Source: Halorussus salinus (GTDB taxonomy: Archaea; Halobacteriota; Halobacteria; Halobacteriales; Haladaptataceae). From it: 64,000 nt of DNA. The stretch is taken from the NCBI RefSeq assembly GCF_004765815.2, contig NZ_ML974127.1, positions 722,927 through 786,926 on the forward strand. Reading direction: 5' to 3'. Shown in pieces: positions 34,843 to 39,105 of this stretch (position 1 is the stretch's first letter; the number at the start of each line of letters is the position of its first letter). A program made the translations under genes and the position numbers. The notes under the pieces were generated by a model, which saw only the letters and a list, made by a program, of their open reading frames with translations, was not told the origin of the DNA and did no database searches.

Positions 34843-35724
34843 TCAGTCGTCCGCGGCCTCGACCGTCCCCTCGACGTTCGTCAGTTCGAGACCACCTTCG
34901 AGGGTCCGGTTCGGGTACGGGATGTCGATGCCCTCGGCGTCGAATCGCTCTTTCACGCCGGTTACGTACTCGCCGCGGGTCTTCACGTAGTCGCCCCGCG
35001 AGGGGTTCGAAATCCAGATGCGGGACTGAAGCCCGACCGAGGAGTCCCCGAGTTCGGTCAGTCGGACCGACGGGGCGGGGTCGTCCATGATGTCGGGGTG
35101 GGCCTCGGCCTCCTCGACGATGATTTCGGTCGCCTCGTCGATGTCGTCGTCGTAGCCGATGCCGAACAGGAACTTGAGGCGGAGTCGGTCGCCCTCGACG
35201 GGGTTCTTGATGACGCCGTCGGTCAGTTGGGAGTTGGGTACAGTGAGCAGTTCGTTGTCGAACGTTCGGACTCGCGTCACGCGCAGGCCGATGTCTTCCA
35301 CGACGCCCGAGTAACTGCCGCCGTCCCACTCCACCCAGTCGCCGATTTTGAAGGGTTTGTCCGTGTAGATGAACACGCCAGCGACGAAGTTGGCGATAAC
35401 GTCCTGCATCGCGAACCCGATGGCGAGGGTGGCCGCCGCGGCGATGGTCGCCAGCGAGGTCAGGAAGTTGCCGTAGTCGGCGGCCCCGAACGCGACCGAG
35501 ATGGCGACGAACACGACGGCGAACTTCGTGATTTTGAGCAGCGGTTTCTTGGCGTGGCTGTCGAGGTTCCGCCGGTCGAGGAATCTGCTGACTATCGGGA
35601 TGACCGTCAGCCGACCGACGACGTAGATAGCGACGAACGCGACGACGAAGTATATCGCTTGCGTGATTGCCGTCGCGTATCCCGTGTCGATAACGCGGTC
35701 GAGAAACGGAAGCGGATCGACCAT
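34843..35724 (-). CDS. MscS-type mechanosensitive channel
   Basis: A 293-residue small-conductance mechanosensitive channel. Three N-terminal membrane helices (about 15-40, 65-90, 95-125) are followed by the beta domain (YTDKPFKIGDWVEWDGGSYS) and the alpha/beta C-terminal domain with IWISNPSRGDYVKTRGEY. The pore helix holds AAAATLAIGFAMQDVIANFV. It opens on hypo-osmotic shock to release solutes, important in high-salt habitats. The stop overlaps the yhbY gene region: its ATG shares a base with the yhbY stop. Confidence 0.93.
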   Translation of the reverse strand: MVDPLPFLDRVIDTGYATAITQAIYFVVAFVAIYVVGRLTVIPIVSRFLDRRNLDSHAKKPLLKITKFAVVFVAISVAFGAADYGNFLTSLATIAAAATLAIGFAMQDVIANFVAGVFIYTDKPFKIGDWVEWDGGSYSGVVEDIGLRVTRVRTFDNELLTVPNSQLTDGVIKNPVEGDRLRLKFLFGIGYDDDIDEATEIIVEEAEAHPDIMDDPAPSVRLTELGDSSVGLQSRIWISNPSRGDYVKTRGEYVTGVKERFDAEGIDIPYPNRTLEGGLELTNVEGTVEAADD

Positions 35725-35969
35725 CAGTGCAACACCGCGGTGTTCCCCCGCGTCTCCACGAGGTCGGCGTCCACGCGCTCGGCCAACTCCTCGGCGAGTT
35801 CGTCGGTCGTGGTGCCGCCGCGGGCCGCCCGGAGGAACTTGACTTTCACGAGCTTTCGGTCACGGAGTTGGTCGCCGAGTTCGTCGGTCACGGAGTCGAT
35901 TCCGGCCTTGCCGACCCAGACGGTCACGTCGAGGTCGTGGGCCTCTTTGCGTAGGTCTTCGTCTGTCAT
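35724..35969 (-). CDS. YhbY/CRM-domain RNA-binding protein
   Basis: An 81-residue single CRM (YhbY) domain, MTDEDLRKEAHDLDVTVWVG. The GKAG loop and KFLRAARGGTT are the family's RNA-contact positions. Bacterial YhbY binds pre-50S ribosomes; archaeal copies are thought to act in rRNA processing. In many archaea it is a neighbour of RNase P component 4; here rnp4 (38830) lies 2.9 kb away with orc1 and the putative origin in between. It overlaps mscS by one base. Confidence 0.88.
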   Translation of the reverse strand: MTDEDLRKEAHDLDVTVWVGKAGIDSVTDELGDQLRDRKLVKVKFLRAARGGTTTDELAEELAERVDADLVETRGNTAVLH

Positions 35970-36069: not shown

Positions 36070-37665
36070 TCAGTTCCCGTTCGAGAGCTGTGCGCGCACC
36101 ACCGCCGTCACCTCGTCGCTCGACAGGTCCCCGAGTCGGGAGTCCTCGCCGAGCGTCTCCATGATGGTCTCGGGTTGCTCGTTGAAGGTGAACTCGATGA
36201 ACATCCCCGAGGAGGGACCGTGGCTCTTGCGCTCGGACTCCACGATGGAGTAGGTCGTCAGTTCTTTCATCTTGTTGACGTAGGTCTCTTGGTGGTACTG
36301 GTCGGCGTCGAGGGCGTCCGTGAGAAAGCGGTAGACCTGATAGCCGGTCGTACTCCGGGCGGAGCTGTTCCCGGCCTCGTCGGCGACCGCGGCCGTGGCG
36401 TAGAGACAGAGTTTCTTCTGGGTGCTGATGCCTCGCGTCACTTCGAGGACGCGGTTGCGTTCCACCTTGTCCTGCGCTTTCCGGACGTGCTGTTCGCCCA
36501 CCCGGTCGGCACCCTCGCGCTCGGCGAGGTCGCCCGCGACGCGCATCAGGTCGATTGCCTTCCGGGCGTCGCCGTGGTTCTGGGCGGCGAACGCCGCCGC
36601 GAGCGGAATCACGTCGTCCTGCAACACGTCGTCGTGGAAGGCGTCTTCCCGGTGGCGGAGGATGGCGCGCAACTGGTTGGCGTCGTAGTCGTCGAAGTGA
36701 ACGTCCTCGGGCGTGAACGAACTCAGCGCGCGACTGCCGACCGATTCGAGCATCTTCGTGTCGTTCGTGATGGCGGCGATGGAGACCTGCGCGGTGATGT
36801 CGTTGCTCGACCCCGCCCGCGAGAGTTGATAGAGGAGTCGCGAGAACGCTGGCTGGTCCTTGTCGCGTCGCCCGACGAGCATGTCGAGTTCGTCGAGGAC
36901 GAAGACCACGGTGTCGTAGTTCTCGTTGACGAGTCGGTAGAGTTCCCGCCACTTCTCCTTGGTCGAGACGCCGTGCTGTGGCACTTCGACCGAGACGCCC
37001 GCCTCGTCGGCGACCTTCATCGCGAGTTCGTAGACGGCCGACCCGAGCGTCCCGATGTCTTGGCAGTTCATCTCGATGACGCCGAACCGAATCCCGCGGC
37101 TGTCACAGAGACGACCGATGTTCTCGCAGACCGCGTTGATGATGAGCGACTTCCCGGTTCCCGAAGGGCCGTAGAGAAAGAGGTTCGGCGGGCGGTTGTC
37201 GCCGATGGCGACCCGGAGCATCTTCGTGACCTGCGTCAACTGCTCGTCGCGGCCGACGATGCGCTCCTCTTCGACCACCTCGTTGGGGTTGAGTAGCGAC
37301 CGATTCCGGATGAGCGACTGCTGTTCGTCGAAGTCGAGTAGCATCTCCTCGATGGACTTCGACTCGTCTTCGGGCGTGACCGGGTCGTCGGGTTCGAGCG
37401 TTTCCCCCGGTTCCGTCAGCGTTTCCTGCTCGCCCGTGGCCTCCGACTCGACCAACGTTTCTCGGTCTGCCGCCGTCCTCGACTCGCCCTCGTCTCCGGA
37501 TTCGGCGGTTCCGTTCGACTCGACCGCATCTCCTCGATTGCCGGAGTTCTCGGGGGCGTCGGCGTCTATCACCGCGGCCTGCGAGTCCGTAGAGCGCGAA
37601 CCGTCGTCGTCGCGAAGAGAAGCGTCCTCCTCGTCAGCATCTGCAACCGAGGCGTCGGAATCCAT
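36070..37665 (-). CDS. orc1: Orc1/Cdc6 family replication initiator
   Basis: A 531-residue AAA+ initiator. Residues 1-125 are an acidic Ser/Glu/Asp-rich extension, unusually long for this family. Walker A is LYGPSGTGKS (about residue 172), Walker B VFVLDELDML (about 250) and sensor 1 SIAAITNDTKML (about 290). A winged-helix DNA-binding domain lies at 430-525 (YQVYRFLTDAL, SIVESERKSHGPSSG). Its start faces a repeat-rich, gene-free region, and it is transcribed away from it, the usual arrangement of a haloarchaeal initiator and its cognate origin. Confidence 0.95.
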   Translation of the reverse strand: MDSDASVADADEEDASLRDDDGSRSTDSQAAVIDADAPENSGNRGDAVESNGTAESGDEGESRTAADRETLVESEATGEQETLTEPGETLEPDDPVTPEDESKSIEEMLLDFDEQQSLIRNRSLLNPNEVVEEERIVGRDEQLTQVTKMLRVAIGDNRPPNLFLYGPSGTGKSLIINAVCENIGRLCDSRGIRFGVIEMNCQDIGTLGSAVYELAMKVADEAGVSVEVPQHGVSTKEKWRELYRLVNENYDTVVFVLDELDMLVGRRDKDQPAFSRLLYQLSRAGSSNDITAQVSIAAITNDTKMLESVGSRALSSFTPEDVHFDDYDANQLRAILRHREDAFHDDVLQDDVIPLAAAFAAQNHGDARKAIDLMRVAGDLAEREGADRVGEQHVRKAQDKVERNRVLEVTRGISTQKKLCLYATAAVADEAGNSSARSTTGYQVYRFLTDALDADQYHQETYVNKMKELTTYSIVESERKSHGPSSGMFIEFTFNEQPETIMETLGEDSRLGDLSSDEVTAVVRAQLSNGN

Positions 37666-37701
37666 GCCTCGGGCGTCTCGTTCCTCCCATTAAACGTTGC
37701 C

Positions 37702-38666
37702 GTTATCGATGTGTATTCGCTCCGTAGGTTCCACTACGATACCGGATTTGGAAGTATCGGTGCTACAGTCGCGACGGTTCGGGGAGTGCCGACGAAGTGT
37801 TCGGAAGTGTGCCGACGAGATGACGGCGGAAGCCCGACGACAGAGACACACCTCTATCGAAGTGTTCTGGGCGGAGACGAGGGAGGGTGGGTGGTCGGGT
37901 TATCGGCGATGTCGCATCCGGGGCGGCATCATCGAGAATTACACCCGTTTCCCGCGCTCGGGAGGTCTGTATAGTCGTGCGTACTCCTCTCTAGAGAGAA
38001 CTCCCACCCACCTCTATCGAAGTGTTCGATGTGTTTCCTACGACTGTCCTCCTAGCTGAGATTGAAAGAAGAGATAGAGGAACGGGAAGCGGAGGCAACG
38101 AAAGCCGAGGAGTAGACGCGGGAAGACAGAAAGGCGAGATAGAGAGACGAAAAGAGGGCACAGAGGGACAGGAAAACGAGATAGAGCGAAAGAAAAGAAA
38201 CGGAAAGACGAGAAGACGGACGGAGGAGCAGGAGGACGAGAAGACGGACGAAGTAACGGGCGAACGCGAGGTCGAACACGAACTGACTGACGACACCGGA
38301 CTCCTGCGAGGATTAGACAACTCCTCCGATAACGAAACAGCTCCTCCGACAATGAAACAGCTTCTCCGACAATGAAACAGCTTCTCCGACAATGAAACAG
38401 CTTCTCCTACTAACGAAACAGTTTCTCCAACATCAAAACAGCCCCTCCGACGACGAGACAGTTCCTCCAACACCGAAACACCTCTTCCGACGATACACTT
38501 CGATAGAGGTGTCTCTCCCTCCACCTTCTCGTCCCGCCACACTTCGATAGACGTGTCCGCCCGCCCGAACCCGCCGAACCCCACCTACCGAAATTCCGAT
38601 AGAACACTTCGATAGAGGTGTGACACTCCGTCACTTCCGATACCGACAACAAATCGATAGAGGTGT
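37702..38666. other. Putative replication origin with opposed 18-20 bp boxes
   Basis: Copies of ACACCTCTATCGAAGTGTTC lie at 37848-37867 and 38008-38027, with a weaker GTTATCGATGTGTATTC at 37702-37718. On the right, inverted copies (ACACTTCGATAGAGGTGT) lie at 38495-38512, 38539-38556 (one change), 38603-38621 and 38651-38666 (partial). The boxes point toward each other across a strongly purine-rich tract (38055-38280) and a 20-bp tandem array. Boxes of opposite orientation flanking a possible unwinding region next to orc1 is the layout of archaeal origins. The box differs from the classical ORB I know, suggesting a cognate, non-standard initiator-origin pair. Confidence 0.75.
38321..38489. repeat. 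20-bp tandem repeat inside the origin region
   Basis: About eight units close to CTTCTCCGACAATGAAACAG (one unit is 21 bases). Central units are identical and outer ones diverge, as expected from slippage. The array abuts the first inverted origin box. There are no spacers, so it is not CRISPR. Confidence 0.9.
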
Positions 38667-38720
38667 CTCCTCGGTTCGAGTCGCCGGAATAGAGGCATCG
38701 TCGGAACGCGAGGGTCACCG

Positions 38721-38788
38721 AAATGGAGAAGCCAGCGAAACGGAGAAGCCAGCAAAACGGAGAAGCCAGCAAAACGGAGAAATCAGCG
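38721..38788. repeat. 17-bp tandem repeat, four units
   Basis: Four units of AAACGGAGAAGCCAGCA with slight changes lie between the last origin box and rnp4. They are purine-rich on the plus strand, like the tract within the origin. Confidence 0.88.
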
Positions 38789-38829
38789 AACGCGGCGGAG
38801 TCGACGGAACGCGAACACCGGTCCGGCGC

Positions 38830-39105
38830 TCACTCGTAGGGGTACCGCGCTTGCTCGCCGCAGTCGCAGGTGACGACGACGTGACCGTCTTGCAATCTGA
38901 CACGGGCGTTCTTTCCCGGTCGAAGGTAGGTGTCGCAGGCGTCGCAGGTAAAGCGTTTGAACTCCTTCGGGAGCGGGATTCTGTTGCGCTCGGCCAGCCT
39001 GCGCGCGAGACGGACGTACTCTCTGGCGCGGTCGTCGTGACACTCCGCGGCGGCGTCGCGGGCGAGCGAGGCGAGACGCTCGATGCGCTCTTCGGCTATC
39101 GTCAT
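38830..39105 (-). CDS. rnp4: RNase P protein component 4 (Rpr2/Rpp21)
   Basis: A 91-residue RNase P subunit acting with the catalytic RNA to mature tRNA 5' ends. Residues 1-45 form two helices (MTIAEERIERLASLARDAAA, YVRLARRLAERN). The zinc ribbon has CDACDTYLRPG and TCDCGEQARYPY, giving the four cysteines. The gene reads toward the origin region. Its usual neighbour yhbY is on the far side of orc1. Confidence 0.9.
   Translation of the reverse strand: MTIAEERIERLASLARDAAAECHDDRAREYVRLARRLAERNRIPLPKEFKRFTCDACDTYLRPGKNARVRLQDGHVVVTCDCGEQARYPYE

Follow-up and report, generated by a model that had tools for sequence, protein, structure and literature searches.

Seven boxes of one kind lie upstream of an orc1/cdc6 gene

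We analysed a 64-kb stretch of the Halorussus salinus genome, referred to here as the window. It contains an orc1/cdc6 gene located between yhbY and rnp4, with an array of repeated boxes in the intergenic region upstream of orc (Table 1). The orc product matches the Pfam families Cdc6_lid (E 2e-24), AAA_16 (E 2e-14) and Cdc6_C (E 1e-13) and is related to the PDB entries 2V1U (E 6e-47) and 2QBY (E 2e-45). It is a complete Orc1/Cdc6 protein with AAA+ core, Cdc6 lid and C-terminal winged helix, which is the make-up of an initiator. Within the clade that carries the module at the yhbY-rnp4 site, dN/dS of orc is about 0.1-0.2, indicating purifying selection.

Table 1. Genes, boxes and spacer of the orc-ori module and its neighbours (positions in the window)
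Feature	Position	Strand	Evidence or remark
yhbY (CRM-domain RNA-binding protein), left neighbour	35724..35969	-	CRS1_YhbY E 1e-19
orc1/cdc6 initiator gene, 531 aa (P0001)	36070..37665	-	Pfam, PDB relatives, dN/dS
Leftmost box, degenerate (TTATCGATGTGT)	37695..37714	+	Core scan; weak copy at orc promoter
Half-box GACGAAGTGTT	37791..37801	+	37791-37800 invariant in 6 Halorussus species
Left box 2	37846..37865	+	Genome scan, core scan, conservation
Left inner box (38006-38025) and adjoining half-box TTCGATGTGT (38026-38035)	38006..38035	+	
Spacer between inner boxes, candidate unwinding region	38028..38494	.	467 bp, 48% A+T vs 35% in window
Right inner box	38495..38514	-	Core scan, conservation
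Right box 2	38539..38558	-	Core scan, conservation
Right box 3	38604..38623	-	Core scan, conservation
Right outermost box	38649..38668	-	ATTTGT variant, the form of most Haladaptatus boxes
rnp4 (RNase P Rpr2/Rpp21 subunit), right neighbour	38833..39105	-	Rpr2 E 1e-14; synteny

The box is a near-palindrome of 18-20 bp that has a polarity. When one mismatch was allowed, its 12-base core CTATCGAWGTGT had exactly seven matches in the whole window, all within 37703-38660: three on the plus strand (37703, 37854 and 38014) followed by four on the minus strand (38495, 38539, 38604 and 38649). Dinucleotide shuffles gave an expectation of 0.18 matches and 0/100 shuffles reached seven; a 17-mer with three mismatches allowed found six sites where 0.14 were expected. 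Throughout the 4.75-Mb genome, of which contig C1 was read end to end, CACCTCTATCGAAGTGT with up to one mismatch occurs five times, each time (5/5) at the orc-adjacent locus. A preliminary description of this DNA had reported seven boxes in two opposed groups, three left and four right. Number and layout are borne out, and these are the sole core matches in the window, but the copy farthest left (37703) is weak and the half-sites at 37791-37801 and 38026-38035 had been overlooked. An orc-adjacent intergenic region with inverted box repeats is among the marks by which PMC3528665 recognises an origin, and the three plus four opposed boxes at 37695-38668 form such a region.

The boxes are strongly conserved. 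Four Halorussus species share the location of the module; between them, identical letters occupy 95% of box positions and 19% of the other intergenic positions. Seven invariant runs of at least 10 letters are common to six Halorussus species and all of them fall inside boxes or half-boxes, among them TTGCCGTTATCGA in the leftmost box (37697-37709) and TATCGAAGTGTTCGATGTGTT in the left inner box and its half-box (38015-38035). Another reading, in which the array arises by chance or from intergenic low-complexity sequence, can draw on the purine-rich and tandem repeats of the spacer. It is already refuted by the excess of boxes over the shuffles and by their conservation across families of Halobacteria, and we give it practically no credence.

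The leftmost box is situated directly upstream of the TATA-like TTTAAT of orc, which precedes the ATG by about 30 nt. As this box sits right beside the orc promoter and varies little among six species, the boxes could be thought of solely as operators through which Orc or another regulator acts (autoregulation), with no origin involved. However, six more boxes reach as far as 1 kb upstream and form two opposed groups with an A+T-richer spacer between them, which is much more than an operator comprises, and 19 of 40 listed plasmids have this module as their sole Orc system (see below). We regard a pure operator function as very unlikely.

The spacer of H. salinus is the longest measured. In relatives, spacers span 120-311 bp (median 178 bp) and have a median A+T content of 52% compared to 43% for the locus (53 named loci). 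In 60-bp windows the H. salinus spacer reaches up to 60% A+T, and none of its parts is conspicuous as a strongly A+T-rich unwinding element. Both elements that had been described between the boxes exist: a tract of 84% purine at 38059-38260 and, at 38317-38491, a tandem array with 8.7 copies of a 20-bp unit. When looked for in relatives they were not common to them; they are unconserved and peculiar to H. salinus, and having no counterpart in relatives they were rejected as functional parts. Between the last box and rnp4 lies a second tandem array (38719-38790) with 4.2 copies of the 17-bp unit CGAAACGGAGAAGCCAG. The sequence CGGAGAAGC is found in this array and, on the opposite strand, in the 20-bp repeats.

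The box resembles a divergent ORB and the Orc differs from that of oriC1

We derived a family consensus, ACACMCCTCTATCGAWGTGTTC (ACACATCGATAGAGGGGTGT on the reverse strand), from 447 sites. Approximately 62% of them carry a GGGG G-string at the outer end, pointing outward on both sides of the origin; in Halorussus the G-string is mostly GGTG and therefore weak. Because the consensus has the outer GGGG in ORB polarity, the box is, by this comparison, more aptly described as an ORB, divergent and with a short G-string, than as a non-ORB element. The earlier view that it does not resemble the ORB was thus too strong. In the open-access literature the exact box sequence occurs in 19 papers, none of which, judged by title, deals with archaeal replication.

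The same genome encodes an oriC1-type Orc (L001), which is 32% identical to the window Orc. Cdc6-1 of S. solfataricus shares 47% identity with L001 versus 32% with the window Orc. On these identities the window Orc is placed outside the conserved Orc1/Cdc6-1 lineage of oriC1, and the oriC1 role falls to L001. In its plan, the module is similar to haloarchaeal oriC1, where inverted boxes surround a spacer beside orc with the G-string outward (PMC3936714; for H. hispanica we read this orientation from the C and G stretches mutated in that study), but both the Orc lineage and the box are different. The closest other Orc in the window's genome (L008, G000:C9:117028) is 51% identical to the window Orc and is accompanied by different repeats. 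It is encoded on a small contig and flanked on both sides by its own repeated motif, TCATCTCGCACACGGGG, with which it apparently forms another initiator-box pair.

Box and initiator are linked across haloarchaea

The preliminary description had proposed a search for the same box beside orthologues of the window Orc, and the outcome was positive. We used one reference genome per species, giving 53 named loci. In 51 of these, plus boxes are followed by minus boxes (read along orc) upstream of orc, arranged around a spacer and without interleaving. Altogether, the 53 loci contain 441 boxes, whereas the same sequences read backwards contain 2. In an order-wide sample the box was present in 90 of 392 genomes and 29 of 95 genera, spread across families of Halobacteria, and the reversed control pattern appeared in a single genome. 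We read 29 of the box loci: 21 encode the Orc family of the window, seven are without any Orc and have one box each, and one is an exception. In this last locus (L081) the boxes lie near an Orc of 30% identity, on a contig equally long as that of L134, which encodes an Orc of the window's family (69% identity). The concern that the boxes might be widespread away from orc genes is therefore not borne out.

Box and Orc also vary together. Haladaptatus halobius and two genomes of another genus of the family encode Orcs that are 72-74% identical to the window Orc, and in these genomes nearly all of the 9-10 boxes are changed alike, from ATGTGT to ATTTGT or ACTTGT. This is the trace to be expected if binder and site had diverged together. 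Linkage and co-divergence point to a predicted Orc-box pair in which the initiator would recognise the boxes.

A near-palindromic box clustered near an origin, with single copies over the chromosome, could alternatively serve as a partition (centromere-like) site. The box is indeed an 18-bp near-palindrome, and a few single two-mismatch copies are found within about 260 kb, some of them reappearing in sister species. The boxes, however, track the Orc gene, and the two best single copies were rejected as titration or partition sites: 848735 falls within coding sequence (HTAIEEF), and at 849878 the copy is a promoter element of a conserved gene, half of the element being present also in species without the module. 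We consider a partition site even more improbable than a pure operator. Two further single boxes with two mismatches, at G000:C1:569166 and 663793, are intergenic and located about 97-192 kb from the origin; they recur letter for letter in the module-bearing sister G014, and one of them also in G020.

The module belongs to a family of plasmid replicons

The Orc family of the window is the only Orc match in 19 of the best 40 plasmid records. It is therefore probably the replicator of those 19 plasmids, an assignment that leaves room for initiators of other types. One plasmid relative is pL131 of Natronomonas pharaonis, which carries an orthologous orc with perfect boxes, ACACCCCTCTATCGATGTGT. 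Table 1 of PMC3528665 (2012) lists one Cdc6 and one predicted origin for pL131, implying that, through this entry, the Orc/ORB family of the window is already within published predictions. The Orcs of pL131, pHLAC01 (Halorubrum lacusprofundi) and pHTIA (Halorhabdus tiamatea) are 76-78% identical to the window Orc, and the three plasmids have the same box in the same opposed arrays upstream of orc. The preliminary description had suggested a distinct initiator-origin pair. Judged by these relationships, the pair is apart from the oriC1 pair of its own genome, yet within a widespread and already known family of haloarchaeal plasmid replicons that includes pL131.

Unlike the chromosomal Halorussus copies, the three plasmids add an array of 3-4 boxes downstream of orc. 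A downstream array is present at most orthologous loci and in all complete plasmids inspected, nearly always in one orientation, and was not found in the window copy or in the other Halorussus copies. In Haladaptatus-type modules (L261, L035 and L036) it is reversed relative to other plasmid modules. No relatives of the module were found in viral contigs.

Halorussus carries the module at different chromosomal sites

In Halorussus relatives without the module at the yhbY-rnp4 site, yhbY lies beside rnp4. In six such species only yhbY is located between mscS and rnp4 (309-434 nt), and in five further ones a transporter-like gene (named by eye) is there too. The module occupies the position between yhbY and rnp4 in the window's genome (G000), G014, G017 and G020, which a tree built from six neighbouring proteins groups as a single clade (100/100). 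In G012, G022 and G026 it is found between acs and mutS, two genes that are 135 bp apart in the window's genome. G024 carries it at a third place. Genes there are ordered differently from those in the window's genome, which leaves no clean empty site for comparison. The acs cluster by the acs-mutS site (L252 3297-5441) includes a gene that, by eye, resembles a fusion of a tyrosine-recombinase-type domain with a helix-turn-helix region. In three contigs of chromosome size the module is separated from the oriC1-type orc by about 28% of the contig span; in G012 the separation is 48%.

A quick tree, in which duplicate fetches of the same genomes are counted, places the Halorussus Orcs in a single clade (SH-aLRT 96). 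Among the listed plasmids with close relatives none is from Halorussus, although the records closest to the window's genome may be absent from this list. The simplest reading of these sequences is one acquisition followed by relocation within Halorussus; the alternative is repeated acquisition from an unsampled pool of Halorussus plasmids.

A close orthologue of the window Orc is missing from about half of the same-genus genomes. In H. aquaticus (G012; L089/L253) orc contains an in-frame stop, and in G026 (L255) it is frameshifted at another position; the boxes are intact in both. Unless these lesions are assembly errors, the two species seem able to do without the module. What is new, as far as these genomes tell, is a module that is chromosomal in Halorussus, sits at two to three sites, is without the downstream array and has a broken orc in two species. 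Whether it is in fact a moving chromosomal origin, with one monophyletic initiator lineage at two to three sites, without the downstream array and decaying in one lineage, is a question on which we are evenly divided.

A probable secondary origin that may be active or dormant

Taken as a whole, the locus is very probably a plasmid-type Orc1/Cdc6 replicator module (orc plus origin) that resides in the Halorussus chromosome as a secondary origin. The candidate replication origin beside orc1 put forward previously is supported by the box array, its conservation and its linkage to one Orc family. From the arrangement of the boxes we infer how it would work. Orc would bind the left and the right box groups, with the G-rich ends outward, and the bound groups would open the relatively A+T-rich spacer between them, where MCM would then be loaded. 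The degenerate box at the orc promoter may allow Orc to repress its own gene.

We see about even odds that the module fires in normal growth. It may be weakly active or dormant, since the same genomes possess an oriC1-type orc and since orc is broken in two sisters. A relic or dormant origin, at which Orc sites are kept as a passenger or backup, as reported for oriC4-cdc6H, while the chromosome fires from oriC1, has in our estimate slightly less than an even chance; being a sub-case of the secondary origin, it shares part of the confidence placed in that reading. Each of the six Halorussus chromosomes searched, whether it carries the module or not, has the oriC1-type Orc at 92-99% conservation. 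The distribution of the module is patchy, and no turning point at the locus (~761 kb) is seen in the G+C, A-T, purine or keto skew along the 1.585-Mb contig. Published dormant origins, moreover, are recently acquired and lie beside inverted ORBs (PMC4595724). Against dormancy, orc and every box are strongly conserved in the window's clade, which argues that some function has been kept.

The secondary origin has two described counterparts. As in Haloferax mediterranei oriC4-cdc6H (PMC4595724), a patchy, recently acquired orc-ori pair with inverted ORBs is present on the chromosome. Dormancy and activation have been shown for oriC4-cdc6H, whereas the Halorussus module is a possibly dormant origin, and unlike oriC4-cdc6H it is found at different sites in different species. 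Haloarcula hispanica oriC2-cdc6E (PMC3936714) is likewise a secondary chromosomal origin beside its own cdc6. Its ORB-rich downstream array (oriC2D), which resembles that of the plasmid relatives, restrains initiation, likely by titration (PMC3936714). The Halorussus module is without such an array, and any kinship of its Orc with Cdc6E is putative.

With over 400 boxes in alignment, the family is a clean example of an initiator and its box. Box and Orc come in two matched variants, one in Halorussus and the plasmids and one in Haladaptatus, and sister species include both occupied and empty sites. Three questions thereby become testable: how archaeal Orc proteins alter their box specificity, by what route a plasmid origin enters a chromosome, and whether copy control is relaxed once the downstream box array, presumably a titrating one, is lost. 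If the module is indeed a moving origin, Halorussus would show in nature how an origin is captured, relocated and lost.
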